Positions 874 through 24,731 of a stretch of 34,178 nt of DNA are shown one piece after another. Where the stretch lies: NCBI GenBank assembly GCA_020345805.1, contig CP070772.1, positions 91,408 to 125,585 of the forward strand, read 5' to 3'. The notes under the pieces are model-generated. The model was not told the origin of the DNA and made no database searches. It saw only the letters and a program-made list of their open reading frames with translations. The position numbers and the translations under genes were made by a program. Position 1 is the stretch's first letter. Every line of letters starts with the position of its first letter. The DNA is from Phycisphaerales bacterium. GTDB lineage: Bacteria; Planctomycetota; Phycisphaerae; Phycisphaerales; SM1A02.

Positions 874-2403
874 ATGAGTCATCTATCAGCATCCCGGATC
901 CTGTTGCCCTTACTCACAGTTCTCGCGGTAGTGTGTGCCGGCTGTGCACCGTCGGCCCAACAACGCGAGCGGATGGCGGAGTACGAGCAATATGCCAGGC
1001 AGTTGGACCAGGCATATCTGAATGCGCCGTCGTCTGTGCGGATACCCACCCATGCTCAGGCTAGGGCCGGCGGAGTGAGCTGGACCTTCGCCCGGCCCCT
1101 TGAGGAAGTCTGGAGAAGCTGTGTGGATCTGTCCGGGCAGTATCCGGGGGTCATGGCCGTGCAACGCGGGCGCGACGGTTCGCGCCAGCTCCTCATGCTC
1201 ACGGCGCGACACTACTCCTATTTCAGTTCCGTTGGATTGTGGCTTTCCGTCAGTGTAAGGCCGCTCTCGTCGCGGCAGACCGAAGTGGCCGCCGCCCTTG
1301 TCGATCCCGTCAAGGGCGAATTGTTCCCGCTTTCGACGTCCGGATTGCAGAATGCTCCGAAGGTCATAATCGATCGGAATACATATTCGGCGATCTCCAC
1401 GAGGCTGAGCGATATCCGTTCGTCCGTGAAGGACGACCCAATTGCGCAGGCGAGCGTGCATAGTCACATGGTCGTCAACGGCTTCTTCAACGAACTTGCG
1501 ATGCAGTTGCTGGCGCCGGGGCGATGGAAGGCCAAGTATGTCGCCTCCGGACGGGCTGTCGGCTTTGACCCGGATCACAAAGTGCCCGGGCTCAAGCGGC
1601 GAAGGCCGTTCAGCTATGGCGGTCTGGAGAACAGAACCGGCAACTTCGCCTCGGCAGTCCTGCGCCGCTCGCATGTTGTCATCGACGATCCCGCGGTGAG
1701 CGGCATACTCGACGAAGTTGTGGGTGAACTGCTACAGGCCGCGGGTCAGGCCGAGTGTAAAGTCAACACCTACGTGCTCGCGTCACCGGACGTCAACGCC
1801 TTCGTGATGCCGAACGGCGATGTATTCGTGTGCAGTGCGCTGCTGGATACGCTGGAGGATCGCAACGAACTGGCTTTCATTCTCGGGCACGAATTGGACC
1901 ATCTGCTTCATCATGACACTCTGGCGCGCCTGAAGAAAGCGCACTCCACCAGAGTGGCGCAGTACACGATTGTGGGAATGACCTCCGCGATCGCTCCGAT
2001 TCTGGGCCCCGCACTGGGGATCACCTCCGGCGTGGCCGGCGCCGCCACCACCAGCACCTCGACGATGATCGCCCAACAGGCGGCCTCGCAGGCGATCCAG
2101 AGCACGGTCGCCTCGGTGGCGGGCGTGCTCGGAGACGCCGTAAGCGCCGCGATCATCGAGGGCTACTCCCAGGGCAGTGAGTTGCGGGCAGACGGCAACG
2201 GCGCGCGGTACGCGCTCGCCGCCGGGTATGATCCGGCCGCTTCGTTGGGCGTCCTTGCGACGCTTCAGGCGATCGAAGCGGAAGCAACGAACGCTCAGAC
2301 GGCAATCACATCTCAACTGATCAACTCCAAACCGGGCCTGGAGAAGCGAACCGATCGGATGCGCGACACGTTGACGAAGCTCGGCGTGGCGTCGGCGGAC
2401 TAG
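874..2403 (+). CDS. M48-type zinc metalloprotease lipoprotein
   Basis: This 509-residue protein starts at ATG 874, the codon just before a typical lipoprotein signal ending in Ala-Gly-Cys at residue 24; the frame is open further upstream but that part does not look like protein, and GGAGG (853-857) and GAGG-like bases lie upstream of 874. Residues about 40-210 form an N-terminal domain containing the recurring alpha/beta pattern (FARPLEEVWRSCVDLSGQYP). The C-terminal half is an M48 peptidase: HELDH at 339-343 gives two zinc ligands and the catalytic Glu, and SELRAD places the third ligand at about Glu436, followed by the usual AAGYDP. Between them lies a Gly/Ala-rich hydrophobic insert. Known M48 lipoproteins cleave or check misfolded outer-membrane proteins; the substrate here is inferred only. 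It sits between two lipoprotein genes on the same strand. Confidence 0.88.
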   Translation: MSHLSASRILLPLLTVLAVVCAGCAPSAQQRERMAEYEQYARQLDQAYLNAPSSVRIPTHAQARAGGVSWTFARPLEEVWRSCVDLSGQYPGVMAVQRGRDGSRQLLMLTARHYSYFSSVGLWLSVSVRPLSSRQTEVAAALVDPVKGELFPLSTSGLQNAPKVIIDRNTYSAISTRLSDIRSSVKDDPIAQASVHSHMVVNGFFNELAMQLLAPGRWKAKYVASGRAVGFDPDHKVPGLKRRRPFSYGGLENRTGNFASAVLRRSHVVIDDPAVSGILDEVVGELLQAAGQAECKVNTYVLASPDVNAFVMPNGDVFVCSALLDTLEDRNELAFILGHELDHLLHHDTLARLKKAHSTRVAQYTIVGMTSAIAPILGPALGITSGVAGAATTSTSTMIAQQAASQAIQSTVASVAGVLGDAVSAAIIEGYSQGSELRADGNGARYALAAGYDPAASLGVLATLQAIEAEATNAQTAITSQLINSKPGLEKRTDRMRDTLTKLGVASAD

Positions 2404-2455
2404 CCACCACGGCCCGGGCCGGGAGCGCCTGCGAACGATCAATCCTTTCCTCTCA

Positions 2456-3295
2456 ATGAAGATTCCCTACCGAAAGCATTCGTTCTCTTCGCGAGCCGTG
2501 CTCAGCCTGCTGACGGTGGTTGCGGTGCTGGGCTCAGGTTGTGCGGGTCCCGCTTCGCCGAGGGTTGACCGCGAGACCATTCTGCAGGCCGAAGAGGCCG
2601 CCGTGATTCAGCTCGGCCTGATCGAGGCCGCGGCGCATCGGCAGGCGGCGGTGAGTATCGTCGCCCCGAGGTTGAAGGAGATGCTGCAGGAACTGGTCGA
2701 TGAGTTGGCTTATGTCGCCGACTGCCCGATTCCGTGCCGCGTCCGCGTGGTGAACTCACCGGTGATACACGCCTTTGCCCTGCCGACCGGCGATATTTTC
2801 ATCTACGCTGGCATGCTGGACCTGGTGGAGAATCGGGATCAACTCGCGGTGGTCCTGGGTCATGAAGTGGCCCACATCAAACACAAGGATGGGCTGCGCA
2901 AGGTGCGACAGATGCTCAACGAGCAGGAGAAGGCCGCCGTGACCGCGGCCCTGCTCGGCGCGGTCGTGGGCGGCGCCGCGTCCGGCGCGCTCGGCGGGAT
3001 CCTGGGGGGAGTCGTAGTCGATCCCCTGCTCACGGTGGCTTATCACCAGTACCTGGTCGGTATCTCGTGTAATGTTGCCGCCCGGCTGGCGGCAAGCCTG
3101 CCGCAGCAGTTGGTCCTGGACCTGATGCGGCAGAGCATAGGGCGGTACAGTCAGGCGACCGAGCTGCGCGCCGATCGCTTGAGCCTGGAGTTTGCGAGCG
3201 CGGCCGGCTATGACCCGGAAGCCGGCGTGGAGGTCATGCAACTGGTCGAAGAGGCCCGGGATCGCGCCTTGAATCAGCAGACGGGGTCGCGCTGA
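2456..3295 (+). CDS. Second M48-type zinc metalloprotease lipoprotein
   Basis: This is a 279-residue protein with a basic N-terminus, a hydrophobic core and Gly-Ser-Gly-Cys at residue 29, so it is probably lipidated. It is a minimal M48 peptidase: the zinc motif is HEVAH at 136-140, preceded by DIFIYAGMLDLVENRDQLA, and the third ligand is Glu236 in TELRADR, followed by AAGYDPEAGV. A hydrophobic Gly/Ala-rich segment (about 157-190) separates the motifs, as in the upstream paralogue. Unlike that protein it lacks a large N-terminal domain. No Shine-Dalgarno site is visible before ATG 2456. Its stop overlaps the start of the next gene (TGATG), pointing to coupled translation. Two differing M48 paralogues in one operon suggest a division of labour on envelope proteins. 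Confidence 0.87.
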   Translation: MKIPYRKHSFSSRAVLSLLTVVAVLGSGCAGPASPRVDRETILQAEEAAVIQLGLIEAAAHRQAAVSIVAPRLKEMLQELVDELAYVADCPIPCRVRVVNSPVIHAFALPTGDIFIYAGMLDLVENRDQLAVVLGHEVAHIKHKDGLRKVRQMLNEQEKAAVTAALLGAVVGGAASGALGGILGGVVVDPLLTVAYHQYLVGISCNVAARLAASLPQQLVLDLMRQSIGRYSQATELRADRLSLEFASAAGYDPEAGVEVMQLVEEARDRALNQQTGSR

Positions 3296-4485: not shown

Positions 4486-5243
4486 ACAGACAGGCCGGAT
4501 CTCCAGATCGCGGATGACTGCGTCTTGCCTGCATCGAAAGCGGTGAACCTTCAGAGGTTTTGCCGCGGACCCCAATCACCCACCGATAACTTCCCAGACC
4601 ATCGCCACGACGCCCGCTCGTACCGCCTCCGGCAGCTTCGGCCATACGTCGATGACTGCCGCCAAGTCAGGGTCGGACGGGGCCGAATCGCGGGCATCTG
4701 TTGCGTATTCCCAGTGCCGCGTTCCTGGGAATTCTCCAAGTCGTTGTCGCTGCAGTCGGTTACGGAACCCGATTTGATTACCACCGGCCCCACTCCGGGT
4801 AAGTGCTTTATTTCAACGGGGTTGCATCGTTTCATGGAGGCCGCCGCTGCCGGCCGTTGCGTAATGACGCCCCCGGAAGCAGCGACTCGACGCGGCGGAT
4901 CGCGGCACGGCATCCTCCGCGTGATCGCGGCGAAGCCCGGCCCCCCGGGGCAATCACCGACGCCGAAGCCGATTCCTTCCATTCTCGAGAGCGGGGCGTG
5001 GCGGCTCCGCCGAAGAGGATGCGCCCGCCGTGTACTGCTCCGCAGGCTCCGGTGAACCCGTACAAGTCCGACATCAGAGACACCCCACACAGAAGGCAGG
5101 ATCCTCCTAAACCTCACCGCCCAACCGTTCGATAACTCAGTCGAGGGCGATCCTCGATGATCCGGTGTCCCTCATGTCAGCCCCGGCGCTGGAAGAGACG
5201 TGCCTCCACGTGAAGCAGGTAATCGGCCTGGGGCTACGTGTAT
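4486..5243. other. Gene-poor stretch with integrase debris
   Basis: About 760 bases lie between the lipoprotein operon and the peptide cassette without an intact gene. Open frames exist on both strands but their translations are Arg/Pro/Ser-rich and show no domain. The one recognisable piece is the minus-strand integrase-type tail at 4576-4812, described separately. No T-tract terminator hairpin was seen after the lipoprotein operon, and I could not find a convincing promoter for the cassette downstream. Confidence 0.5.
4576..4812 (-). pseudogene. Remnant: C-terminal tail of an integrase-like gene
   Basis: Reading the minus strand from 4812 down to the TGA at 4576-4578 gives a short open frame containing GTRHWEYATDARDSAPSDP followed by DLAAVIDVWPKLPEAVRAG and a hydrophobic end (VVAMVWEVIGG). 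I recognise this Asp-Leu-Ala-Ala-Val...Trp-Pro-x-Leu-Pro pattern as the variable C-terminal tail found on predicted phage-type integrases and related proteins of planctomycetes. The frame is closed by a stop at 4813-4815, and none of the three minus frames beyond it shows a recombinase core (no HxLRHT-like box), so the gene body has been lost or scrambled. The recognition is from memory, not from a search. Confidence 0.5.
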
Positions 5244-6707
5244 ATGACCGCAGTATTATCGGAAGAACGCGCCAGTGGGGCTCGGGTGGTATCGCTCGCC
5301 CGCGAGGACAACGTTGCCGGCTCCTCCCGCGATGACGCGACGGCGAGTGCCGCGCCTTCGCGCGGCGGTAGCCGGTGCCTTCGGCCCGCCGCCTTGCGGA
5401 ACGTTCGCATGATGCACCTGCTGGAACGGATTGCGGGCAAGTTCAACGAAGCCGGCATCCCCTTGATGCTGCTGAAGGGCGCCGCCCTGAACCTGACCGT
5501 ATACCGGCATCCCCATGAGAGGGAGATGCGCGATCTTGATCTCCTCATCCGGCCAGAGGATCTCAATCGCACCTCGGAGCTCCTTGAGGCTGAGGGGGCC
5601 CTCCGCCGAGACGTGGCAATCTGCGAAGACTTCATTCCCCGCTTCCACTTTGAGAAGGAATACAGCTTCGGCTCCGTGCTTCCGGTTGCCGTTGATCTGC
5701 ACACGCGTCCGTTTGGCGTGCTCAGGTATTCCCGATTCATGCCAGAGGATGCATTTTGGGAGCGGTCGACGAAAGTCCGGTTCGGCCGATCCGCCGTCTT
5801 CCTGCCATCCGCGGAAAACATGCTCATCCACCTTGCTGCCCATTGCACTTTCCACAGGTGCTGTCATGCAAAATGGCTGGAGGATATCTCCCGGTGGTCG
5901 CGTATACGCGGAGATCTCATAGATTGGGATCGCTTCCTGATTAAGATTCGGGCCTGGCGCCTCTCGCACGCCATCTCAATATCTCTGGCGGCGGCGGAAC
6001 GAGCGTACGGCCCGATTTGCCCCCCCGCGGTCTGCCAGGAATTGTCAAGAATGCCGGTCTCCTGGCGGGACCGTCTGGCCATTCGGCATTCCCGCGGCGG
6101 CAGCGGCGATTTGTTCACTCGGGCGTTGGTCAATCTTCTAACGACGCCGGGTCTCGCATACGTGCTGGCCTATCTCCTCACCCTTGTCAATCCCAATCGG
6201 GAGTACATTGACGACTGGTGCGTGCGCCATCGCTTCCCCTGGCCGCGAGTGGCTCGCATCGCCCGATGCCTCTGGCCCTTGCTTCGCCACCTGAATCCGT
6301 GGTGGGAGCATCAGGCGAAGATCGAGAACCGAGAGAGCTCAATCCACGGGATCGGAGTCTTCGCCCTTCGCGAGCTCGGGCAGGGCGAGCTCATCGCGCG
6401 CTACCGTGGCGGTGAAACCACGAAGTCCGGCACCTACGATTGCTGGCACACGGGTCGCGATGGTGAATCGATCCGCCATGCGATCACCGGGCCCTTGCGG
6501 TACCTCAATCATTCCTGCCAGCCGAATGCCAGGCTCTCCGAGTTCCGGCTGATCGCCCTGCGTCCGATTCGCTCCGGACATGAGATCACCATCGACTACG
6601 GCACTGACGCGTGTCTTTGCCGTCGCAAGCAAGACGGAATCAATTCCCGCGCCGGCTCGTCTTCATCCCCAGGCGGACAACTTTGCTCCCAGGTTACTGT
6701 CATGTAG
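5244..6707 (+). CDS. Nucleotidyltransferase fused to a SET domain
   Basis: This protein of 487 residues is counted from ATG 5244; a GTG at 5238, two codons earlier, is also possible, but the GGGG at 5230-5233 fits the ATG better. Residues about 45-350 match the uncharacterised nucleotidyltransferase family (NTP_transf_5): LLKGAALNL, then REMRDLDLLI with the metal-binding Asp97-x-Asp99, and later HFEKEYSF and VDLHTRPF. From about residue 360 a SET methyltransferase domain begins (SIHGIGVFALREL), with the substrate/cofactor motif RYLNHSCQPNA (Asn422-His-Ser-Cys425), EITIDYG (Tyr452) and a C-L-C pair at 457-459 that may bind zinc with Cys425. The frame runs unbroken across both parts. It opens the five-gene peptide cassette; I infer it modifies the peptide or a carrier. 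Confidence 0.8.
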   Translation: MTAVLSEERASGARVVSLAREDNVAGSSRDDATASAAPSRGGSRCLRPAALRNVRMMHLLERIAGKFNEAGIPLMLLKGAALNLTVYRHPHEREMRDLDLLIRPEDLNRTSELLEAEGALRRDVAICEDFIPRFHFEKEYSFGSVLPVAVDLHTRPFGVLRYSRFMPEDAFWERSTKVRFGRSAVFLPSAENMLIHLAAHCTFHRCCHAKWLEDISRWSRIRGDLIDWDRFLIKIRAWRLSHAISISLAAAERAYGPICPPAVCQELSRMPVSWRDRLAIRHSRGGSGDLFTRALVNLLTTPGLAYVLAYLLTLVNPNREYIDDWCVRHRFPWPRVARIARCLWPLLRHLNPWWEHQAKIENRESSIHGIGVFALRELGQGELIARYRGGETTKSGTYDCWHTGRDGESIRHAITGPLRYLNHSCQPNARLSEFRLIALRPIRSGHEITIDYGTDACLCRRKQDGINSRAGSSSSPGGQLCSQVTVM

Positions 6708-6777
6708 TTTCCCTCTTCCAATCAGACCTGTTGCCGTCAAACCCACGCCGCCGCCGGACACCGGACAATCCGCCATC

Positions 6778-7065
6778 ATGAACCCCGCACTCAAGCCGCG
6801 CACAGATGATGCTCACCCGCCGGGCCAGGCACCGGCGCCTCTGTATGCCCGCCGGGACTTTCTGGCCCGGGTCGTCACGCGGACCGCCTATGTCGCACCG
6901 GCGGTGATCGCCCTTTCGTCCCGAAAGGGCCTTGGGCGTCTTCAACCCTGTGCCGAACAGGGATCGCCCTGCTCGACGGACGCCGACTGCTGCGCGGGGC
7001 TTTTCTGCGTGGACGACATGGGTGATCCGGTGATGCAGGGAGGAATGGGCACTTGCGAACCATGA
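6778..7065 (+). CDS. Twin-arginine peptide with cystine-knot cysteine pattern
   Basis: This 95-residue protein starts at ATG 6778 (no strong Shine-Dalgarno site), 70 bases after the NTase-SET gene. A Pro-rich N-terminus leads to YARRDFLARV, a twin-arginine motif at Arg25-Arg26, then a modestly hydrophobic stretch (TAYVAPAVIALSS, 36-48). The remaining 40 residues carry six cysteines at 58, 65, 71, 72, 77 and 93, spaced C-x6-C-x5-CC-x4-C-x15-C. That is the inhibitor-cystine-knot order, with a vicinal CC in the middle. It is probably exported by Tat or targeted to the membrane, then oxidised to three disulfides. Its stop overlaps the VKOR-DsbA start (ATGA). I see no homologous toxin by name; an ordinary Cys-rich exported protein is the alternative. 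Confidence 0.72.
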   Translation: MNPALKPRTDDAHPPGQAPAPLYARRDFLARVVTRTAYVAPAVIALSSRKGLGRLQPCAEQGSPCSTDADCCAGLFCVDDMGDPVMQGGMGTCEP

Positions 7066-8492
7066 CACATGGAAAAACAACATCGCGGTCCGAAGGCTGC
7101 ATGGGCGTCGGTGGCGCCGGACCATCCGCGCTTCATCGAGGCTTGCGGCTGCGCATCATCATTGTTTTCTTCCTGTGCGCTGCCGGGGCATTGATCTCCT
7201 GGCAGCTCCTTCACCAATCCCTCGGCCATTCGTCAGGAGGGGGACAACCGGGTTTTCTCGCCCGCATCTGTGGGGCTGCCAACGCATCCGGCCTCGCTTG
7301 CGATCCCGCACTCGACAGTAAGTGGTCCAGACTGACCGTTCCCTTGCCTCTGTTGTCTTCCGAGCATTTTCCAGCCGTTCGGAAGGTGAGAATCCCGGTT
7401 GCATTTCTGGGCGCGTCGTATTTCGTCTTACTTGCGGTCTGGTTCGGCACGCTGGGCGGACCCCGCGCCGCCGCTCGGGGCGTGATGCGCTTGCCGCTCC
7501 ACGCAGCGAACTGCGGACTTGTGGCGAGCGTGTTCTATTCGGGCCTGATGGCCACCGGCGCCGCTCCGCCGTGCATCTGGTGCGTGCTCGTTCATCTGAT
7601 CAATCTCGCGGTCGTGGTCGGCACCTGGGGCATGTTCCGCGATCCGGAGAGGAAAGCTGTAACGGCAACCGCCGGAACGCCCCAAGTGACACCAACCGCA
7701 ATTCCTTTGAAGCAGATCCTCACCTCGCTCGCCCTGGCCATGGTCATCATCGCCGCGATCGGGGTTCATTATCGGCAGGAACGGCTCCACGTTCGTCAGC
7801 TCCGAGCACTTCGCCCGTACCGGGCCATGGTGGCAACCCTGCAGCACGATCCGGATTTTCTCCTGCGCGAGTTCTCTACCCAGCGGCAGTATGACATTCC
7901 ACCACGCACTGACGAACCCGGACAGCACGGACGGGCGCTTCTTGTGGTGTTTACGGATTACGAATGTCGGTCGTGCTACTGCGACGACCGAGCCCTGCGT
8001 GAAGAGGTGATCCCTCTGGTGGGTGATCGGATCGAGGTTGCAGTCAGGCATTACCCGCTTTGTGCGGAATGCAATACGGCGGTAACCGGATCGATGCACG
8101 CCAACGCCTGCGACGCGGCGTTTGCCGCCGAGGCTGCGAGGCTCCTGGGAGGGGCCGGGGCCTTCGAGCGGATGCACTGTCTGCTCTTTGAACATCAGGC
8201 GGAGCTGAAGCCGGAACTGTATGACGAACTTGCAGTGGAAGCGGGTCTCGATCCGGATGCATTCCGCCGCGCGATGCAGAGCGAGCAGGTCCGGCAGGTC
8301 GTCCGCGACGATATTGCCCTCGCGGAAGAGCTGGGCGTAAACGGGACACCGACTCTGTTTCTTGATGGCCGGCGGGTGCCGCATCTGTGCCGCACGCCGG
8401 TGTTCTGGAGGGCGTTCGCACAGGACCGGGCGCAGCTTGCCGCGGGGGACGGGACGGAGGTCGCGGGGGTGGTGGCGGTCGCAGCTCACTAG
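7062..8492 (+). CDS. VKOR-DsbA fusion, disulfide-forming membrane protein
   Basis: This protein of 476 residues is counted from ATG 7062, which overlaps the stop of the Cys-rich peptide; a TTG at 7053 is less likely. The N-terminal 220 residues form a vitamin K epoxide reductase domain: a transmembrane helix, a loop with two cysteines (CGAANASGLACDPALDSKWS), further helices and the quinone-linked active site C171-I-W-C174. After another membrane segment (about 220-245) comes a DsbA/thioredoxin-like domain with Cys302-R-S-Cys305-Y-Cys307 after FTDYE and the cis-Pro motif NGTPTLFLDGR. Such fusions pass electrons from a substrate thiol to quinone and so make disulfides outside the cytoplasm. The extra Cys307 is unusual. 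Coupling to a six-Cys peptide strongly suggests dedicated oxidative folding. Confidence 0.88.
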   Translation: MTHGKTTSRSEGCMGVGGAGPSALHRGLRLRIIIVFFLCAAGALISWQLLHQSLGHSSGGGQPGFLARICGAANASGLACDPALDSKWSRLTVPLPLLSSEHFPAVRKVRIPVAFLGASYFVLLAVWFGTLGGPRAAARGVMRLPLHAANCGLVASVFYSGLMATGAAPPCIWCVLVHLINLAVVVGTWGMFRDPERKAVTATAGTPQVTPTAIPLKQILTSLALAMVIIAAIGVHYRQERLHVRQLRALRPYRAMVATLQHDPDFLLREFSTQRQYDIPPRTDEPGQHGRALLVVFTDYECRSCYCDDRALREEVIPLVGDRIEVAVRHYPLCAECNTAVTGSMHANACDAAFAAEAARLLGGAGAFERMHCLLFEHQAELKPELYDELAVEAGLDPDAFRRAMQSEQVRQVVRDDIALAEELGVNGTPTLFLDGRRVPHLCRTPVFWRAFAQDRAQLAAGDGTEVAGVVAVAAH

Positions 8493-8509
8493 CGGAGGAC
8501 TTCGGGACA

Positions 8510-8836
8510 ATGTCCGATCAACACAACGATCTGCCGGAGCCGGCGTGGGTGGCGACATCGGCAACCATCATTCCACCGTCGCGCCGAACGGATGTTGTAT
8601 CGTGCGTGATTGACCGCGAGATCGTGCTCTCGGAGCCCGATCGGGGGGATGTGTACTACCTGAATGAGACGGCGTCGGCGGTCTGGACCAGTTGTGACGG
8701 CGCCACAAGCACCAGAGACATGGCGGAGGCACTTGTCGCCCGATTCGAGGTGCCGTTTGAACTCGCCCTTGACAACGTGGAGCAGGTCGCTGCGTGGTTC
8801 GCGGAATCGGACCTGCTCGAAACGCCCGACCAGTGA
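8510..8836 (+). CDS. PqqD-like peptide-binding protein
   Basis: This protein of 108 residues is counted from ATG 8510, preceded by GGAGG at 8494-8498; the open frame extends upstream but that part is low-complexity Gly/Arg. The core matches the PqqD family: EPDRGDVYYLNETASAVW (residues 42-59), then a Cys-Asp-Gly turn and an amphipathic C-terminal region (VARFEVPFELALDNVEQVAA). PqqD proteins and RiPP recognition elements form a small winged helix-turn-helix that binds the leader of a precursor peptide and presents it to a modifying enzyme. It lies 17 bases after the VKOR-DsbA gene and its stop overlaps the next start (TGATG). By position it may recognise the N-terminal part of the Cys-rich peptide; no radical SAM partner is present. 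Confidence 0.85.
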   Translation: MSDQHNDLPEPAWVATSATIIPPSRRTDVVSCVIDREIVLSEPDRGDVYYLNETASAVWTSCDGATSTRDMAEALVARFEVPFELALDNVEQVAAWFAESDLLETPDQ

Positions 8837-9783
8837 TGACACACAGCCGCAGAGGACAACGCGATGATGCCGCGGGGGCGGAGTGGCGATTTACCATCGG
8901 CGAAATCGATCTCGACTTGCGCAGCGACGCGAAGGGGATTGTCGACGAGCTGGCCGGCTTATATCCCCGCTGCCGTTCCTCCTCATCGCGCAACGGGTGC
9001 ATCCGGCTGGCGGTAATGCGGCGGAGGCGGAGGCTGTTGGGCGCGGCCCGCTACGACATCGTCAGTGACGGCGTCAAGATGACCGGCGGCCATCGCGAAG
9101 AGAACCTGCTGCCGCATCTTGAGTGGGCGATCAGCGGCAAGGTCATCGAAACCTGCAGTCAGTACCTGCAGATCCACGCGGCTTCGCTGTCATTCCGGGG
9201 AATGGGGGCGATCCTGGCCGGGCCGTCCGGTGCGGGGAAGTCCACGCTGGCCGCGGGTCTCCTCGCCGGCGGCTGGAAATACATGTGCGACGAGTTTGCG
9301 CTGGTTGAACCGGAAAGCGTGACGTTGCGCCCGTTTCCGAAGGCCCTGTGCGTCAAGTCCGGCGCGTTCGAGATCGTTAGAGAACTGGACTTGAAGCTGT
9401 CGCGGAATCGTCCCTACGTGAAAACATACAAGGGCAACGTCGGGTACATCAGCCCTCGGACTGTGCCGCGGGCGGTGGCGGAGAGGCCGGCCTCGATCGG
9501 GATGGTGCTGTTTCCGAAGTACACGGGTCAGAGGACGCCGTGCATCCGGCCCTTGCTGCGAGGAAGGGCGGCTTTCAATCTTGCCGCCTACGTGTTGAAC
9601 ACCGATGCCTTTGCCGACCGCGGCCTGTCAACGATCCGGCGGATCGTGGACGGCGCCCGGTGTTTCGTGGTCGAGACCGGCTCGATCGGGGACACGATTG
9701 AGCTGATCAAGTCCATCGCCGGCCAAGGCAACTCCGCAGCCGATCGGGATCACGCCCAGATGACACAGACAGGCGTTGCGTGA
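8836..9783 (+). CDS. HPr-kinase-like P-loop protein
   Basis: This protein of 315 residues starts at ATG 8836, overlapping the PqqD stop. It resembles the HprK-related kinases found beside PqqD genes in peptide cassettes: a strand and HAASLSF, then the Walker A loop GPSGAGKST (129-137) and MCDEFALVEP with Asp152-Glu153, where true HPr kinases have Asp-Asp. The family's HPr-binding and phosphorylase features are not evident, so it is probably not a carbon-catabolite regulator. In lasso-peptide and related systems such kinases phosphorylate the peptide; a similar activity on the Cys-rich peptide is an inference. It is the last clear gene of the cassette, and 724 gene-poor bases follow. Confidence 0.82.
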   Translation: MTHSRRGQRDDAAGAEWRFTIGEIDLDLRSDAKGIVDELAGLYPRCRSSSSRNGCIRLAVMRRRRRLLGAARYDIVSDGVKMTGGHREENLLPHLEWAISGKVIETCSQYLQIHAASLSFRGMGAILAGPSGAGKSTLAAGLLAGGWKYMCDEFALVEPESVTLRPFPKALCVKSGAFEIVRELDLKLSRNRPYVKTYKGNVGYISPRTVPRAVAERPASIGMVLFPKYTGQRTPCIRPLLRGRAAFNLAAYVLNTDAFADRGLSTIRRIVDGARCFVVETGSIGDTIELIKSIAGQGNSAADRDHAQMTQTGVA

Positions 9784-10507: not shown

Positions 10508-13336
10508 ATGAGATTTCGCGCGTTACCAACGGGCGCCGCGGCGTGGGGATGTATGTTCCTGACGTTCGGCGCAATCGCAGAGCCGGCCCCGCCGCAGGGT
10601 TCGGTCAGCGTCACCATACCGGTAGGCGGCTACCAGGTGACGAAGACGGAACGGGGCGACGAGCTGACCATCGAAGATTTCGGCTACCTGAACACGCCCG
10701 GGATGCCGCAACTTCCGACCAGGATCTTCGCCGTCGCCATTCCGCCCGGTGCCGAGTTCGTCGATCTTCAGTACGACCCGGGCCAGGGCGTGGTTCTTCC
10801 CGGCACTTATCAGGTCCCGCCCGCGACGTTGCCGCGGGTGATCGGGCAGGAAGACGCAGCCCTTTACGAAGCGGAACTCCGGCAATGCGAGATCAACCGC
10901 GCCGCCGTTTATGGAAGCGACGATGCGTTCCCGCGGCAGCCGGTGGAGTTCGTTCGCACCGCCGGTTACCGCGGCTACAACCTGGTGGATGTAATGGTCA
11001 CGCCGTTCGCCTACTACCCGCAATCCGGGCAACTGGTTTATTACCCGGACGTGACGGTCAATGTGACCTACCTGCCGTCGCGGAACGAAGCGGGGGCCAT
11101 CGCCGACGATTCCGCCCGCATCGAGGCGCTGGCGGCGGAGATCGTGCTCAATCACGATCAGGCCCGATCCTGGTATCGGGAGGATGCCTCCACGGATCGC
11201 GGACTTCACGATTTCGTGATCATCACGCTCGATTCGCTGTCCGCGTCGATCAACGCCATCGTGGACTGGGAGTCCACCAAGGGCAGGACGGTGGAAGTGG
11301 TCAGCACCTCCTATATCAACTCCTTCTACACCGGTTATGACCTGGCCGAGAAGATGCGGAACTTCCTCCGGGAGAAGTATCCCGCCGATCAGTGGGGCAT
11401 CGAGGACGTGCTCCTCATCGGACACTACGACGACGTGCCGATGCGCCGCACCGCCCAGAACACGGGATACGGCCAGCCCGAGACCGACTTCTATTACGCG
11501 GAACTGACCAAGGCGGACGCCGACTCCTGGGATGCGGACGGCGATCATCAGTGGGGCGAGGATTCGGACCCCATCGACTTCTATGCCGAGGTGAACGTGG
11601 GCCGCATTCCCTGGAGCCAGCCGGACATCGTTCTGAGCATCTGCGAGAAGTCCGTCGCCTACGAGCAGAACACCGACCCGAGCTTCAAGAACAACATCCT
11701 GCTGCTCGGGGCGTTCTTCTGGCCCGACACCGACAACGCGGTGCTCATGGAAGCCAAGGTGGATCAGTCGTGGATGGCCGACTGGACCATGACCCGCATG
11801 TACGAGCAGGGTTACACCACCTATCCGATGGATTACAACCTCAACAACGTCAATGTCCAGTCGGTGTGGTCCGCGGGCAAATTCGCGTTTGTGAACTGGG
11901 CCGGCCACGGTTCTCCGACCTCCTCGCACATTTACTACTCCACGGGTGAGGCGTTCATTGCAAACAGCAATTGCCCCTACCTCAACGACGACTACCCGGC
12001 GATCATCTTCGCCGATGCCTGCTCCAACTCCGACACCGATTACCTCAACATCGGCCAGGCCATGATGGAGCAGGGCGGCGTGGGATTTCTCGGGGCGACC
12101 AAGGTCGCCTACGGAATGCCCGGCTGGTATCAGCCTTACAGCGGCTCCAGCCAGTCTCTGGATTACTTCTTCACCACCTACCTCACCAGCCGCGACTACA
12201 CGCTCGGCGGGGGACATCAGCGGGCCCTGCTGGAGATGTACACACATAACATGTGGTACTACCTCAAGTACGAGACCTTCGAGTGGGGAGCCATCTGGGG
12301 CAACCCGAACCTGGCCATGGGATCGCCGGCGGCCCTGAGCATCTCCTTCCCCGACGGTTTGCCCGAACTTCTCGCGCCGGGAGTCGAGACGGCAATCACC
12401 GTGAAGATCACCGACGGCCTGGAAACTTACGTTCCGGGCACGGGAACGCTCTACTGCCGTTATGACGGCGGCACATATGTAACCTCGCAACTGACTTCGA
12501 TCGGCGGGGATCTCTACGAAGCGATCCTCCCGCCCGCCGCCTGCGATGACGTGCCGGAGTTCTACTTCAGCGCCGAGGGTGACGGCAGCACCGTCATCTA
12601 CAGCCCCTACGGAGCGCCGGACAACGTCTATACCGCGGACGTCGGCGTCATCAACGTCGCCGTCGAGGACGATTTCCAAGACGACCTGGGCTGGACGGTC
12701 GAGAACTTCGATCTCGACACCGGGGCCTGGGAGAGGGTCGATCCCGTCGGCAGCAACGGCAACCGCGGCGATCCGCCCGACGATTACGACGGCTCCGGCA
12801 AGTGTTACGTCACGGGCGACGGCTACGACGAAGACATCGACGGCGGGCCAACCGTGCTTACCTCCCCCACCATCGACCTCAGCGGCGTGCCCGAGGCGGA
12901 GGTCAGTTACGCCCGGTGGTTCTACAACGACGACAACGATGCCGACCGCCTGCTCTGCGAGATCTCCAACGACAACGGGGCGTCCTGGGTGACCCTGGAG
13001 AACGTCTCGCACGATCCCGGCTGGACGGTGGTCTCGTTCTTCGTCGCCGACTACGTGACGCCCACCGATCAGATGGTGTTCCGCTTCAGCGCCGATGACA
13101 ATCCCAATGACTCGGTCACCGAGGCGGGTATCGACGCGTTCATGATCACTTCCTTCGATTGCGATAATGATTGCCCGGAGGATGTGAACAGTGATGCCGT
13201 GGTCAACATCGACGATCTGTTTGAGATTCTCGGCCACTGGGGCGAGACCGGTGGTACTTACGATGTCAACGCTGACGGCACCGTGAACATCGACGACATC
13301 TTCGCGGTCCTCGCCGCCTGGGGCCCCTGCCCGTGA
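10508..13336 (+). CDS. Gingipain-type (C25) cysteine protease with dockerin-like end
   Basis: This 942-residue protein has a signal peptide that probably ends at AIA near residue 24, an N-terminal propeptide-like region with DFGYLNTPGMPQLP, and a Peptidase_C25 domain (about 228-610). The catalytic pair is visible: His467 in NWAGHGSP and Cys505 in FADACSNSD, followed by GGVGFLGAT. An Ig-like and a jellyroll/MAM-like region (about 610-880) follow. Residues 884-942 hold two dockerin-like calcium-binding repeats (DVNSDAVVNIDDLFEILGHW and DVNADGTVNIDDIFAVLAAW) ending in GPCP. C25 enzymes cleave proteins after Arg or Lys; specificity cannot be read here. The dockerin-like end suggests attachment to a cohesin-bearing surface partner, which is not in the window. 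A terminator follows at 13377-13405. Confidence 0.88.
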   Translation: MRFRALPTGAAAWGCMFLTFGAIAEPAPPQGSVSVTIPVGGYQVTKTERGDELTIEDFGYLNTPGMPQLPTRIFAVAIPPGAEFVDLQYDPGQGVVLPGTYQVPPATLPRVIGQEDAALYEAELRQCEINRAAVYGSDDAFPRQPVEFVRTAGYRGYNLVDVMVTPFAYYPQSGQLVYYPDVTVNVTYLPSRNEAGAIADDSARIEALAAEIVLNHDQARSWYREDASTDRGLHDFVIITLDSLSASINAIVDWESTKGRTVEVVSTSYINSFYTGYDLAEKMRNFLREKYPADQWGIEDVLLIGHYDDVPMRRTAQNTGYGQPETDFYYAELTKADADSWDADGDHQWGEDSDPIDFYAEVNVGRIPWSQPDIVLSICEKSVAYEQNTDPSFKNNILLLGAFFWPDTDNAVLMEAKVDQSWMADWTMTRMYEQGYTTYPMDYNLNNVNVQSVWSAGKFAFVNWAGHGSPTSSHIYYSTGEAFIANSNCPYLNDDYPAIIFADACSNSDTDYLNIGQAMMEQGGVGFLGATKVAYGMPGWYQPYSGSSQSLDYFFTTYLTSRDYTLGGGHQRALLEMYTHNMWYYLKYETFEWGAIWGNPNLAMGSPAALSISFPDGLPELLAPGVETAITVKITDGLETYVPGTGTLYCRYDGGTYVTSQLTSIGGDLYEAILPPAACDDVPEFYFSAEGDGSTVIYSPYGAPDNVYTADVGVINVAVEDDFQDDLGWTVENFDLDTGAWERVDPVGSNGNRGDPPDDYDGSGKCYVTGDGYDEDIDGGPTVLTSPTIDLSGVPEAEVSYARWFYNDDNDADRLLCEISNDNGASWVTLENVSHDPGWTVVSFFVADYVTPTDQMVFRFSADDNPNDSVTEAGIDAFMITSFDCDNDCPEDVNSDAVVNIDDLFEILGHWGETGGTYDVNADGTVNIDDIFAVLAAWGPCP

Positions 13337-13405: not shown

Positions 13406-13916
13406 CTCATGAGGCTGACCACCCCTCTCCCCGACACCTGATACGGATCACAATTGGAATTCACGCGTCAGATCGGGAGCAAACCGTTCCCCCCTACCTT
13501 TCAGGGAGAGGGCGAGGGGGTGGGTTGGCGCGCTCGCAGGGCATTGTGCGCTTATTCGACGCCTCCATCGGTTCGTTCGAACCACCCTCACCCTAACCCT
13601 CTCCCTCAAGGGAGAGGGGAATGCCTGCCCCCGTCTCAGATGGAATTCGTATGAAGGGGGGGTCGGGGGTCAGGGACGATCGCGGGCTGCCGCCGCGCCG
13701 GGATCGACATGCGCAGCGGCAGGCACCTTACGATGGCCGGAATCGGCAGGGGCGTGTCTATTGTTTTGGCCGTCATTTCACGATGTAGCCGACACACAGT
13801 GTAGTGGCGACCGCGAGCACGGCCGGCTACGCGCAATGCCTGCCCAACCTGCCTGGGCGGGGCTGGAGCAGCCCCGGAGCCGCGGTGAGGCGCGGGAAAC
13901 CGCAGGGAGATATGCA
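13406..13916. other. Intergenic region before the FG-GAP gene
   Basis: Besides the paired palindromic repeats, this 511-base gap contains a short hairpin at 13859-13875 (7-base stem, 3-base loop) in the presumed leader of the FG-GAP gene. Frames crossing it are Arg/Pro-rich and look non-coding. No good promoter match was found. Confidence 0.45.
13488..13623. repeat. Inverted pair of CCCTCTCCC-type palindromic repeats
   Basis: A GGGAGAGGGCGAGGGGGTGG-like unit (about 13488-13528) and its inverted relative, ACCCTCACCCTAACCCTCTC plus CCTCAAGGGAGAGGGG (about 13581-13623), face each other across roughly 50 bases. The right unit contains its own palindrome (CCCTCTCCC TCAA GGGAGAGGG). This class of short palindromic repeat is dispersed between genes in many bacterial genomes. 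Two facing copies form a paired, REP-like element that could fold as one large hairpin. It lies between the C25 protease terminator and the FG-GAP gene. Confidence 0.6.
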
Positions 13917-16235
13917 ATGAGGTGTTCGGATCACGCAGCGTCTGTGGTGGTTCTGCTCGCGGTGTCAGGAACTTGCGGCAACACCGGGCCCCTCTTCCCA
14001 TGTCAGCAGATCCAGGTGGGGGCGAACCCATTTTCTGTCGCGTCCGCCGATCTGAACGGCGATGGCGAGCACGACCTGGCAGTGACGGACCGTGAAGACT
14101 GCACCGTCTCGATCCTCCTGGGTCATGGCGACGGGACTTTCGCCGACCGAATGACGGTCCAAGTGGCCTGCAAACCCAGTTGGATCGAGGCGGCAGACCT
14201 GGATGCAGACGGCGATGTTGACCTGGCGACCGCCAACGCCAGCGTAGATACGATTTCAGTCTTCTTGAACAACGGCGATGGGACATTCGCCCCGCAGGTA
14301 ACCTACGGCGCGGGCGAGGCGGCCAACGCGCTGAAGATCACGAATCTGGACGGGGACGGCGATCTCGATCTTGTGGTGTGCAACGCCGGGGCCGCTACGG
14401 TCTCGATTCTCTTCAATCACGGAGACGGCACGTTCGGCCCTGCTGACGTTTACGCGGTTGATGCCGATCCGGGATCGCTGAACACCGCAGATCTGGACGG
14501 GGATGGCGACAGCGATATCGCCGTGGTCCACGGTGATACCGATACCGTCTCGATCCATTTCAATCAGGGCGACGGTTCGTTCGTTCCCGGCGAAACCTAT
14601 GAGGTTGGTGATAGTCCGTGGGGCGATAATCCGTATTCAGTCGAACCAGCCGATCTTGACAACGACGCTGACATAGATCTGGCTGTTGTGAACCTGTGGG
14701 GAAGTACGGTTTCGATCCTGCTCAACGAAGGCGATGGTACCTTCGGGCCGTTCAGGCAATATGAGGTGGGATCCTACGCGTGCATGACCGGAATCGAAGA
14801 CTTCAATGGAGACGGCAATCTCGATCTCGCCGTGACAAATTTTTACGATGATGATGTTTCGATCCTCTTGAACACCGGCAACGGGACCTTCATCTGGGGC
14901 AAGAGAATCGCTGTCGGACAGAGTCCGCACGATGTAGCGGTCGAAGACCTCGACGGCGACGGTTGCCACGATCTTGTGGCGGTGAATTTCTACGGCGACG
15001 ACGTGTCCGTCGTCCTGGGCCGTGGGGACGGCACGTTCGATGCGCGTGTGCCCTATTCCCTGCAGGACTACCCGAGCTTCGTCACCAGCGGCGATCTGAA
15101 CGACGACGGGAAACCGGACCTGGTTGCGACCCGCGGGGACGACAGGGTCTCGATCCTGTTCAACGAGGGCGATGCAGTGTTCGCACCTGAGAGGAGCTAT
15201 GGCGTGGGCCCCAGGCCCGTCTCTGCCGCGGTCGCCGACATGGATGGCGATGGAGACCTGGACGTGGTCACCGCCAACAGCCAGATCGGCAGCGTCACCG
15301 TCCGGTTCAACGATGGCTTTGGGGACCTGCTCTGGGGTGTGACATCCTTCTCCGGCTATCACCCCTGCTCCGTGGCGATCGATGACCTGGACGGCGACGG
15401 TGACGGCGATGTCGCCGTCGCCGCCTTTGGCGAGGATAGCGCATCCGTAATGCTCAACGTCGGCTACGGCACGCTGGCCCTGCCCGTGTTCTACGCGACC
15501 GACGAGGGCACGCGCGCCATTGCGATCGGAGACCTCGATCGGGATGGCGATCCCGATCTGGCGACCGCCAACCGTCCCGACGATTCGGTGTCGATTCTCA
15601 TGAATAACGGCGATGGTTCGTTCGCATCAAACGTCAATTACGATGCGGGCGACGATCCCCGCTCTATTGCCATCGACGACCTGGACGGTGATGGCGATCC
15701 CGACCTGGTCGTGCTCGTCTTCCTGGAGAACGCGATCGCGACGTTCATGAACGCGGGTGACGGCACTTTCCTGCCTCGGGTCGTCTACGGCGTCGGGAAT
15801 GAGCCACGCGGACTCGCGGTTGCCGACTTCAACGGCGATGGCGCGCCGGATCTGGCCACAGTTAACAAGTGGGACGATGATGCCATGATCCTGCTCAACC
15901 TCGGCGACGGCACCTTTGCCGTCCCTCTATCGTTTGGCGTGGGGTATATGCCCGTTTCCGTGACGGCCGCGGACCTGGACGGCAACGGCGCCGTCGACCT
16001 GGTCGTGGCCGATGAGCTGGATCAGACCCTGTCCGTTCTCCTGAACCGCCTCGATCCGCAACTCCCCTGCCCGGCCGACCTCAACGACGACGGCAAAGTG
16101 AACATCGATGATCTGTTCCTCATCCTCGGCGCCTGGGGCCTGTGCAATGACTGCCCGGAAGACCTGAACGATGACGGGAAGGTCAATATCGATGACTTGT
16201 TCGCAGTGCTGGGAGCGTGGGGGCCGTGCCCGTGA
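13917..16235 (+). CDS. Secreted FG-GAP/VCBS repeat protein with tandem dockerin-like repeats
   Basis: This protein of 772 residues is counted from ATG 13917, preceded by AGGGAGA; the open frame extends upstream, but this start gives a plausible signal peptide. The body consists of 14 repeats of about 48 residues of the form DLDGDGDLDLAVVN....VSILLN.GDGTF......VG..P.SV, each with a calcium-binding DxDxDG loop; the last one is short. Repeats 9 and 10 are the most diverged (GFGDL and GYGTL in place of GDGTF). Seven such repeats make one beta-propeller, so 14 suggest two propellers in tandem. The end (718-772) carries two nearly identical copies of DLNDDGKVNIDDLF..LGAW, a dockerin-like pair like that of the C25 protease. 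It is probably an adhesion or binding protein at the cell surface. Confidence 0.88.
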   Translation: MRCSDHAASVVVLLAVSGTCGNTGPLFPCQQIQVGANPFSVASADLNGDGEHDLAVTDREDCTVSILLGHGDGTFADRMTVQVACKPSWIEAADLDADGDVDLATANASVDTISVFLNNGDGTFAPQVTYGAGEAANALKITNLDGDGDLDLVVCNAGAATVSILFNHGDGTFGPADVYAVDADPGSLNTADLDGDGDSDIAVVHGDTDTVSIHFNQGDGSFVPGETYEVGDSPWGDNPYSVEPADLDNDADIDLAVVNLWGSTVSILLNEGDGTFGPFRQYEVGSYACMTGIEDFNGDGNLDLAVTNFYDDDVSILLNTGNGTFIWGKRIAVGQSPHDVAVEDLDGDGCHDLVAVNFYGDDVSVVLGRGDGTFDARVPYSLQDYPSFVTSGDLNDDGKPDLVATRGDDRVSILFNEGDAVFAPERSYGVGPRPVSAAVADMDGDGDLDVVTANSQIGSVTVRFNDGFGDLLWGVTSFSGYHPCSVAIDDLDGDGDGDVAVAAFGEDSASVMLNVGYGTLALPVFYATDEGTRAIAIGDLDRDGDPDLATANRPDDSVSILMNNGDGSFASNVNYDAGDDPRSIAIDDLDGDGDPDLVVLVFLENAIATFMNAGDGTFLPRVVYGVGNEPRGLAVADFNGDGAPDLATVNKWDDDAMILLNLGDGTFAVPLSFGVGYMPVSVTAADLDGNGAVDLVVADELDQTLSVLLNRLDPQLPCPADLNDDGKVNIDDLFLILGAWGLCNDCPEDLNDDGKVNIDDLFAVLGAWGPCP

Positions 16236-16893: not shown

Positions 16894-17982
16894 GTGACTG
16901 ACAAGATGCCTATCGCGGTCCTGGGCTGTGGAGGCTGGGGCAAGAACATCGTGCGGACCGTCAACGGTCTGGGCTGCCTGAAATCGGTGGTGGATCCGAC
17001 CGAACAAGGGCGGCAAACCGCCGCGTCTCTCGCCCCGGAGGCCGAGGTTTTTGAGAATCCCGAGCCGGTCTTCGCCGATCCGGCGGTGAAGGGGGTGATG
17101 ATCGCCACCCCGGCCGAGACGCATTACACCCTCGCCCGGGCCGCCCTCGAGGCCGGCAAGGATGTGTTTGTCGAAAAACCCCTGACCATCGACGTCGAAG
17201 AGGCCCATCAGCTCGTTGATCAGGCGGCCAAAACCGGACGAGTCCTGATGGTCGGCCATCTCCTGGAGTATCACCCCGCGGTTCTGAAGCTTCACGAGAT
17301 GATCCAGGCCGGGGAGTTGGGGAATATCCGCTACCTGATTTCCAACCGCCTGAACCTGGGCAAGATCCGCACCGAGGAGAACGCCCTCTGGTCGTTCGCC
17401 CCACACGACATCGCGGTGATTCTCCGGCTTGTCGGAGCCCTGCCTTTTGAAGTGGTGGCGACGGGCGGCTCTTATCTGACCGCCAACATCGCCGACGTCA
17501 CCGTCACCCAACTGCTTTTCGACAACGGCGTGCGATCACACATCTTCGTCTCCTGGCTGCACCCGTTCAAGGAGCAGAAACTGGTGGTGATCGGCTCGAA
17601 GAAGATGGCGAGCTTCGACGACGTGGCCAAGGAGCTGGTGCTCTACGATCAACGCGTCGATTGGCACGAAGGACAACCGATTCCCGTGCGGGGTGAAGGT
17701 CAGCTTGTCGATTTCCCCGGCGCGGAGCCGCTGAAGGAAGAGTGCCTGCACTTCATCGAGCGAATGGCGGATCGCCGCCCGCCCCGGACCGACGGCCTCA
17801 ACGGCCTGCGCGTCCTTCAGATCCTGCACGCCGCCCAGCGTTCGCTGGTCACCAACGGCCAGCCGGTTCCCTTCTCGCTCGATTGGCGCTCCGGCGATGG
17901 AGCAGTCGGCGAGGTGAAACCCTTTCGCCCCCCTGTAAGCGCCGCCAGAGAGGAAGTGGTTGGAGCCCATGCCCAAGGTTGA
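16894..17982 (+). CDS. wbpB: Gfo/Idh/MocA sugar-nucleotide dehydrogenase (WbpB/WlbA type)
   Basis: This 362-residue enzyme starts at GTG 16894, six bases after GGAGG; ATG 16906 is too far from that site. The NAD-binding loop is Gly11-C-Gly13-G-W-Gly16, then come [11 protein letters not shown] and the family's EKP motif (Glu94-Lys95-Pro96). The C-terminal sugar-binding half includes [19 protein letters not shown] and PHDIAVIL. Members of this group oxidise the 3-hydroxyl of UDP-N-acetylglucosaminuronic acid, the second step toward UDP-2,3-diacetamido-2,3-dideoxy-glucuronate. The following acetyltransferase and aminotransferase genes are exactly the enzymes of the next steps, which makes the assignment stronger than sequence alone. 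It overlaps the next gene by 14 bases. Confidence 0.87.
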
Positions 17983-18589
17983 CCCCGCAAGGTTCCCGGG
18001 AGTCCAGATCCACGAGTCGGCATACGTCGACGAACCCTGCGAGATCGGGCCCGGCACGAAAATCTGGCACTTCACCCACCTCATGCCCAACTGCCGGCTC
18101 GGCCGGAACTGCAACCTCGGGCAGAACGTGGTCGTCTCACCCGACGTGACGCTGGGCGACAACGTGAAGGTCCAGAACAACGTCTCCATCTACACCGGGG
18201 TGATCCTGGAGGACGACGTCTTCTGCGGGCCTTCCATGGTGTTCACCAACGTCATCAACCCCCGCAGCGAGATCATCCGGCGCGGCGAGTATCAGAAGAC
18301 CGTGGTCCGCAGAGGCGCGACCATGGGCGCCAACTGCACCATCGTCTGCGGCATCGAGGTCGGGCGCTACGCGTTCATCGCCGCCGGGGCGGTGGTTCCG
18401 AAGGATGTGCCCCCCTACGCTCTGATGGCGGGCGTGCCGGCGAAGCGCATCGGCTGGGCCTGCCGCTGCGGCATCATCCTGCCGAAGACCCCCGCCGACG
18501 GCCTCTTCTCCTGCGATGCCTGCGGTAACCGGTACCGGGAAGAAAACGGAACTCTCAACCCCGTCAAGGAAGTGCAAGAAAATGGCTGA
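17969..18589 (+). CDS. wbpD: Left-handed beta-helix N-acetyltransferase (WbpD/WlbB type)
   Basis: This 206-residue protein is counted from ATG 17969; a TTG at 17960 is also in frame. It consists of hexapeptide repeats ([60 protein letters not shown]) typical of the acetyl-CoA-dependent enzymes that acetylate the 3-amino group of UDP-GlcNAc(3NH2)A. The family signature [11 protein letters not shown] and the end GVPAKRIGW are present. After the core lies a small zinc-ribbon-like tail with two cysteine pairs (C-R-C-G and C-D-A-C-G). It overlaps wbpB upstream and the aminotransferase downstream, so the three are surely one operon. Confidence 0.88.
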
Positions 18590-19775: not shown

Positions 19776-19800
19776 ACGGATCAGTCAACATCTTTTTACG

Positions 19801-19830
19801 GAGGCGTCCCGAATCACGGGATGCCTCTTT
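19801..19830 (+). terminator. Terminator-like hairpin after wbpE
   Basis: An 11-base stem (19801-19811 with 19817-19827, one G-U pair) and a 5-base loop are followed by only TTT. A T-run (CTTTTT) precedes it on the plus strand. It lies 25 bases after the wbpE stop and may end or attenuate the operon before the glycosyltransferases. Confidence 0.6.
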
Positions 19831-19905
19831 ACACTTACGGCCTGCTGGGATGCCCGTCTTTCATGAGCCGGCCGAACTGAGCCGGCGGCCAGTCAGAGTA
19901 CGCCT

Positions 19906-21090: not shown

Positions 21091-21181
21091 CCGCCCGGCG
21101 GCGGCCTCCCTCTCGAACATTGCGAGCCTCTCCGGCGACTCCGGCCCATGCTAACATGCCCTCGACAGGAGACTCTCCGAA

Positions 21182-22531: not shown

Positions 22532-22556
22532 GAAGGCATTGCATCGCGGACCATTC

Positions 22557-24685: not shown

Positions 24686-24731
24686 GGTGATCAACCTTCA
24701 CAGACAGGTGGCGAGACTCGTCAATTCCCCG

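Follow-up and report, generated by a model that had tools for sequence, protein, structure and literature searches.

What could a bacterium make with a cysteine-rich peptide, a PqqD-like protein, an HprK-like kinase, a nucleotidyltransferase (NTase) and a disulfide-forming enzyme that are encoded side by side? The question is raised by a locus in a 34,178-nucleotide stretch of the genome of a Phycisphaerales bacterium (contig CP070772.1, positions 91,408 to 125,585; this whole stretch is called the window), where five genes follow one another on the plus strand (5238-9783) in the order NTase-SET, 95-amino-acid peptide, VKOR-DsbA, PqqD and HprK-like kinase. Our comparative analyses show a conserved operon, which is probably for a ribosomally synthesized and post-translationally modified peptide (RiPP): a phosphopeptide pathway that would be guided by a RiPP recognition element (RRE), work without a cyclase and form disulfides after export. 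The Pfam scan of the window covered 16 proteins, up to position 26123, and the features of the cassette are as follows.

5106..5134, plus strand: promoter-like element preceding the operon, CCTAAACCTC-N14-CGATA (pattern CCTAAAYCYC-N14-CGATA)
5238 (GTG) or 5244 (ATG) to 6707, plus strand: NTase-SET gene, assigned by Pfam
5391-6278, plus strand: NTP_transf_5 nucleotidyltransferase domain (PF14907, E 7e-40)
6321-6608, plus strand: SET domain (PF00856, E 3e-11)
6778..7065, plus strand: precursor peptide of 95 amino acids, with three paralogs elsewhere in the genome
6850..6906, plus strand: leader segment; RR at residues 25-26, then Y38-V-A-P41-A-V43, which fits the consensus for RRE binding
6949..7056, plus strand: six-Cys tail C-x6-C-x5-CC-x4-C-x15-C (the six Cys are invariant in 28 aligned Cys-rich peptides)
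7062 (ATG) to 8492, plus strand: VKOR-DsbA fusion (VKOR PF07884, E 2e-10; DSBA PF01323, E 2e-14)
8510..8836, plus strand: PqqD-like RRE (PF05402, E 8e-13)
8836 (ATG) to 9783, plus strand: HprK-like kinase of the HprK_rel_A type (TIGR04352, 150 bits, cut-off 200)

The stop codon of the peptide and the start codon of VKOR-DsbA overlap as ATGA (7062-7065), those of PqqD and the kinase as TGATG (8834-8838), VKOR-DsbA and PqqD are 17 bases apart, and the widest intergenic gap of the cassette is 70 bases (6708-6777). These coordinates agree with the original prediction, which had placed the five genes on one strand with overlaps or gaps of at most 70 bases. Because of the overlaps and the recurrence of the gene set in relatives, the sequences indicate that the five genes are a tight operon and not a chance cluster.

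Recurrence of the gene set in relatives

Used by itself as a protein query, the window peptide matched only a paralog from the same genome, so that peptide profiles were needed. With a profile of the four own-genome peptides, 44 of 397 genomes of the class gave matches at E 0.01, many of them weak; among the 20 places examined, an NTase-SET relative was found in 11, PqqD in 13 and a full-length kinase match in 12. At E 1e-10 the NTase search matched 63 of the 397 genomes (a few via the SET part alone) and contributed 56 further stretches. A scan of genome contigs with the single HprK sequence retrieved no relative, but a scan with the kinase alignment did, yielding 57 loci. Of these, 53 bear a Planctomycetota name (Phycisphaer- in 29), one is from an unnamed bacterium and three are from other phyla.

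All counts refer to 75 distinct HprK loci (kinases above 150 bits, near-identical ones removed); a search for HprK across the phylum, with matches in 50 of 294 genomes, gave mostly weak kinase matches, which were excluded. PqqD is present in 69 of these loci, the NTase in 64, an assigned peptide in 63, VKOR-DsbA in 28 and SET in 16. Results showed that peptide, PqqD, HprK-like kinase and NTP_transf_5 NTase occur together in 57 of the 75 loci. These four together with VKOR-DsbA, and thus all five genes, occur in 20 loci, the window included, with SET also in 10 of the 20. The predicted linkage of peptide, PqqD, kinase and NTase is supported by this recurrence as well as by the kinase-peptide fusions and the RRE-type leader motif described below. 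We also checked the neighborhoods in relatives for homologous peptides unlinked to the other genes, and the linkage held.

Similar leaders were seen beside PqqD and kinase in Planctomycetales and Planctomycetaceae (L224, L225), and on a Myxococcaceae contig (L227:1968-2237) a twin-arginine peptide with an IAPAV-type leader lies directly before PqqD and an HprK-like kinase. Judging from these three loci, the system may reach beyond Phycisphaerae. One genome (G492) carries two distinct cassettes, L077 and L121, one with VKOR-DsbA and the other with a kinase-peptide fusion.

PqqD, the kinase and kinase-peptide fusions

The PqqD-like protein is the sole match at E 0.001 in the one-contig, 3.94-Mb genome, and a profile of 24 PqqD relatives matches TfuB1 (E 3e-9) and TbiB1 (E 1e-7), two RREs of solved structure, as well as five more PqqD-type chains. 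In the HprK-like kinase, the H, the Walker-A K and a D are invariant in 75/75 aligned homologs. Lasso-peptide kinases have a His-Lys-Asp-Asp motif (PMC9266682; papers are given by PubMed Central (PMC) number), and three of its four residues were located in the HprK-like homologs.

In five loci from five genomes (L079, L080, L083, L121 and L203) the kinase frame continues without a stop through 30-36 residues and is followed by the full leader and the Cys-rich tail. The five loci form one kinase clade (support 86), and fusion is therefore ascribed to one event or a few. None of them has VKOR-DsbA nearby. An internal start codon within the fusion frame is possible; the kinase still has no stop before the peptide. 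At the sequence level, these fusions are the most direct evidence for a partnership of kinase and peptide.

The leader of the precursor peptide

We aligned the leaders of 54 peptides (28 Cys-rich, 26 Cys-poor) from 51 of the 75 listed stretches and the three own-genome paralogs. RR and one Pro are invariant (54/54), an invariance that is partly built in, since the patterns or profiles used to find most of the peptides required both from the start. The position three residues before this Pro (P-3) is aromatic in 51 of the 54, namely in 28/28 Cys-rich peptides (Phe in ten, Trp in one, otherwise Tyr) and in 23/26 Cys-poor ones (Tyr). For discrete lasso-peptide RREs and for Linear Polyphosphorylated Peptides (LPP), the RRE-binding consensus is [Y/W]xxPx[L/V/I/A/F/Y] (PMC13381572), RRE leader groups have been given as W/Y/LxxP (PMC12710340), and aromatic-x-x-P is bound by RREs of the discrete type (PMC13381572, PMC12710340, PMC10368454). 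The cassette thus has what marks an RRE-dependent RiPP, an aromatic-x-x-P leader motif beside an RRE gene.

The leader also has features of a signal for twin-arginine translocation (Tat): the RR of all 54 peptides and a hydrophobic stretch, and in most relatives (by eye) A-x-A after the leader, which is absent from the window copy. Transport by this route is predicted only; TatC is present in 15/15 cassette genomes examined.

Peptide tails and their association with VKOR-DsbA

The window peptide has six Cys in all (C58-x6-C65-x5-C71C72-x4-C77-x15-C93). The pattern first proposed, C-x6-C-x5-CC-x4-C, was right for five of them and had overlooked C93. Two tail classes were found among the loci: Cys-rich tails of the window type (28 loci) and Cys-poor mini-tails (35 loci). 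The Cys-rich loci have six Cys (23 segments) or more (5 segments), and six are invariant across the 28 aligned Cys-rich peptides. Cys-poor tails have no Cys past the leader, except for four with one Cys in A-C-A, and are short, with much Ser, Thr and Gly (for example SPSS, SGVSATS, SGGSGVS). They end in Ser in 26/35 loci; among database matches of the Cys-poor profile a C-terminal Ser was found in 34/41, or in 20/27 distinct tails. Where these matches have a name it is 'hypothetical protein', and those with an organism given are planctomycetes.

VKOR-DsbA, whose sequence shows the CxxC motifs PCIWC and CRSC, lies within 7 kb of 21/28 Cys-rich loci and of 0/35 Cys-poor loci (Fisher P 4e-11, kinship ignored). 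The supposed tie between VKOR-DsbA and the Cys-rich peptide is borne out by this distribution.

The suggestion of a cystine knot fared less clearly. The spacing of the six Cys fits it, but the fold evidence is weak. An AlphaFold2 model of 95 residues (28-sequence alignment) reached a mean predicted local distance difference test score (pLDDT) of 68.5 and a predicted template modeling score of 0.38, with one helix at residues 24-50 and ten-residue blocks of the tail, from residue 61 on, at pLDDT 79-91. Six of its best seven PDB matches are knottins, the top one being a Draxin chain; as the best E was 0.54 and none was significant, these matches are only suggestive. Knottin Pfam models stayed below cut-off on the window peptide.

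NTase and SET domains

The motifs of the window NTase-SET protein are intact: D-x-D as RDLDLL in the NTase, and GIGVFA, NHSC and EITIDYG in SET. LKG and D-x-D of the NTase are found in 18/18 correct alignment rows, a count that leaves out row L173:4260-5300, which is a VKOR region. By eye, the SET motif NHxC is intact in 11/12 Cys-type loci with SET and in 0/6 Cys-poor loci with SET. In these six (L072, L075, L118, L172, L191, L192) the NTase-fused SET lacks NHxC and the tyrosine motifs, and five of the six belong to one kinase clade. A conserved Lys was not seen in the tails, and SET was rejected as a peptide methyltransferase. The idea that SET acts on the peptide found no support: no conserved target residue was seen, and SET occurs in 16/75 loci only.

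Paralogs of the peptide and a shared promoter-like element

At a distance of 0.66 Mb, the minus strand carries a tandem of three further peptide genes (G000:C1:756348-757865). They are 62-69% identical to the window peptide, and each has its own upstream region. Perfect copies of the promoter-like element occur four times in the genome, before the window NTase-SET gene and before each of the three paralogs; the pattern was derived from these four sites, so that only its absence elsewhere is informative. Three genome copies have one mismatch, and a backward-read control gave one match. Conservation of the element throughout the family was rejected, as 5/77 upstream stretches match and 3 of these belong to the own paralogs; among ten stretches before the first gene, it was present in that of the window only.

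Between element and peptide, paralog C retains a decayed remnant of the 3′ end of NTase-SET (L038:8658-8758, minus strand; window 6573-6676, 71% identity, E 2e-9), which hints at the origin of the solitary copies. We infer that the solitary peptide genes arose by duplication of a segment made up of promoter, NTase and peptide. For the six pairs among the four own-genome copies, the ratio of nonsynonymous to synonymous substitution rates (dN/dS) is 0.13-0.43 in the leader and 0.35-1.1 in residues 1-23; for the tail, four pairs give 0.09-0.21, and the window-C and window-A pairs are saturated. These ratios indicate that leader and tail are under purifying selection and the first 23 residues little so.

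Neighboring genes

An open reading frame (ORF) family recurs beside the cassette in 15 loci, and glycosyltransferase domains were found in the one member scanned. In the window itself, 16894-26123 is a glycan-type locus with a Gfo/Idh oxidoreductase, a DegT aminotransferase, three glycosyltransferases and a UDP-glucose/GDP-mannose dehydrogenase. In 8/27 Cys-type loci a relative of the third glycosyltransferase (22551-23900) was found within 6 kb and on the same strand; the 35 Cys-poor loci gave a single match, which is to one of the other two glycosyltransferases and has the opposite orientation. Members of an ABC exporter family (ABC_membrane and ABC_tran in the member scanned) were seen near 6 loci, in varying places and on varying strands.

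Two adjacent M48-type peptidase genes (883-3295) lie upstream of the cassette. Downstream are a C25 (gingipain-family) peptidase with a dockerin-like C-terminus (10508-13336) and an FG-GAP repeat protein (13761-16235), whose C-terminus resembles by eye that of the C25 peptidase. As a part of the system the C25 peptidase was dropped: among the loci it gave five weak matches, which we take to be partly dockerin-type similarity, and no family of that kind was among the recurrent neighbors listed.

Proposed mechanism and alternative explanations

In the RRE-guided pathway that we propose, PqqD would bind the aromatic-x-x-P motif of the leader, by analogy with the lasso, LPP and pyrroloquinoline quinone (PQQ) systems. 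The HprK-like kinase would act first and phosphorylate the peptide on Ser or Thr, the target in most of the Cys-poor branch presumably being the C-terminal Ser, and the NTase would then add to the phosphate, acting on phosphoserine as in the pseudomycoidin analogy. The leader may double as a Tat-type signal that is cleaved near A-x-A, VKOR-DsbA would form the disulfides after export, and the three solitary paralogs could be matured in trans by the single cassette. A more elaborate version is put forward tentatively. The leader would be a twin-arginine signal with the RRE motif inside its hydrophobic stretch, and PqqD might cover this signal until the tail has been modified by kinase and NTase, freeing it for export only afterwards, as a modify-then-export checkpoint. 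The products might branch into Ser-tipped mini-peptides a few residues long and phosphorylated or glycosylated cystine knots, with some lineages fusing the substrate to the kinase.

Several observations weigh against the RRE-guided pathway. The peptide was not recognized in 12/75 loci; 5 of the 12 are cut by contig ends, and inspection by eye of the seven uncut ones and of one cut locus revealed no peptide. The RR and Pro demanded by the searches lessen what their invariance can tell, and the Phe at P-3 in 10/28 Cys-rich leaders falls outside the published [Y/W] consensus. At the expected cleavage place the window peptide has G-L-G and its paralogs G-M-A instead of A-x-A, the window peptide ends without a C-terminal Ser, and the window revealed no dedicated leader peptidase or transporter. 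The kinase tree shows only 3 changes of tail type (Cys) and 6 of VKOR; there are 2 independent Cys/VKOR pairs on well-supported branches, or 3 on all branches (none contrary, some uninformative), which are too few for a sign test to reach significance. Seven Cys-rich loci, five of them the fusion loci, have no neighboring VKOR, and seven VKOR loci have no recognized peptide. Finally, the promoter-like element is limited in relatives to two possible cases, with 0.3 expected by chance over all stretches.

In a different reading, the peptide is not secreted and serves as an adaptor or sensor anchored in the membrane by its hydrophobic helix; PqqD docks on it, with kinase and NTase acting elsewhere, for example on a surface glycan. 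In its favor, Cys-poor tails extend only a few to about 20 residues past the A-x-A region, the window copy has no A-x-A, the fusions of kinase and peptide would keep the kinase at the membrane, and there are the recurrent glycosyltransferase-type ORF family and the glycan-type locus of the window. We regard this reading as unlikely: purifying selection acts on tails of the window type, Ser is the last residue of most Cys-poor tails, and six invariant Cys together with VKOR-DsbA would fit only a tail that reaches an oxidizing compartment. Alternatively, the peptide may be a Tat-exported, disulfide-rich mini-protein, with PqqD, kinase and NTase regulating its release or expression and no covalent modification taking place. 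The RR leader, TatC in all 15 genomes and VKOR-DsbA beside most Cys-rich peptides agree with this. The Cys-poor branch, however, retains PqqD, kinase and NTase while it has neither the six Cys nor VKOR, and the aromatic-x-x-P within the leader and the enrichment of C-terminal Ser also speak against it; we think it quite improbable.

An ordinary lasso-peptide cluster with cyclase and protease located elsewhere would share RRE, HprK and NTase with the paeninodin and pseudomycoidin clusters (PMC8498205). Neither a lasso cyclase (Asn-synthase-type domain) nor a B2 protease (Transglut_core3) was detected in the 16 window proteins, the cyclase search being confined to these. Transglut_core3 gave no match in 11/15 cassette genomes and three weak matches below cut-off; the window genome has one match barely over cut-off, in a 547-amino-acid frame far from the cassette. 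Six-Cys or very short tails are, moreover, unlike lasso cores, and this reading was rejected as very improbable. Chance adjacency of unrelated genes was likewise rejected as having practically no probability, given the recurrence of the gene set in dozens of genomes, the fusions, the start-stop overlaps and the shared promoter-like element.

If the RRE-guided phosphopeptide pathway is correct, cyclase-less, kinase-centered RiPP biosynthesis would extend from Bacillota to Planctomycetota and be joined there to disulfide-rich peptides. A leader serving two receptors, RRE and export, would raise the matter of how modification is ordered before secretion. The fusions and the Ser-ended mini-tails would offer simple substrates for studying the action of the NTase on phosphoserine, which has been left open for LppN (PMC13381572) and PsmN (PMC9266682).

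Comparison with known systems

We found no description of the five-gene system, or of a planctomycete PqqD RiPP with a precursor peptide, among the titles and abstracts listed from the open-licence PMC literature. Two families of database models come near its PqqD and kinase. For HPr-rel-A (TIGR04352/TIGR04353), a term used by none of the papers listed in the literature search, 24/24 kinases match HprK_rel_A at E 1e-5 (best E 2e-59) and 20/24 PqqD proteins match PqqD_rel_X at E 0.01; the window proteins themselves stay below the curated cut-offs (kinase 150/200 bits, PqqD 14.5/35 bits). SynChlorMet (TIGR04248/TIGR04249) also has PqqD- and HprK-like proteins, of weak sequence similarity, but the window proteins are far under its cut-offs (26.7/100 and 22.7/125 bits). 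The SynChlorMet cassette contains radical SAM enzymes, and none were noted in the scanned window proteins.

Phosphorylated lasso peptides (paeninodin, pseudomycoidin, Bsf) share with the cassette the RRE, the HprK-like kinase and a YxxP-type leader, and the NTase is common to the pseudomycoidin and Bsf clusters (PMC8498205, PMC9266682, PMC10368454). According to these papers, the RRE BsfB1 boosts phosphorylation by the kinase BsfK (PMC10368454), the residue that PadeK modifies is a C-terminal Ser, and the addition of hexoses requires PsmN (PMC9266682). The C-terminal Ser that is the kinase target in paeninodin is present in most Cys-poor peptides here. Unlike these lasso peptides, the cassette has no ring-forming core and has Cys-rich tails.

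The closest known system is LPP, reported in May 2026 from Bacillota, to which it is described as restricted, with RRE, HprK and NTP transferase and no cyclase (PMC13381572). The original prediction that no described system has this gene set thus holds for all five genes together and not for their core, which has been published as LPP. Both have a discrete RRE, an HprK-like kinase, an NTP transferase and no macrolactam cyclase (for the cassette, among the 16 window proteins scanned), a [Y]xxP leader motif, a C-terminal part that varies, genes for capsule or glycan in the vicinity and sometimes several precursors. The LPP leader is removed by a signal-peptidase-like enzyme, and the planctomycete peptide has a signal-peptide-like leader. 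LPP differs in having an archaeal-type SpI peptidase and an MsbA-like transporter, neither of which is among the 16 window proteins; no SpI peptidase was seen by eye among the listed neighbor families of the relatives either, the domain scan being limited to window proteins. Of the LPP leader YxxPxVLxHQxIxFETxxS, that of the cassette shares YxxPxV only, with RR and a hydrophobic stretch and without HQxIxFET. To the LPP-type core the cassette adds VKOR-DsbA, SET and six-Cys tails, in a planctomycete host. With its different leader and neither SpI peptidase nor transporter, the planctomycete system falls outside LPP as defined, yet it probably works like LPP.

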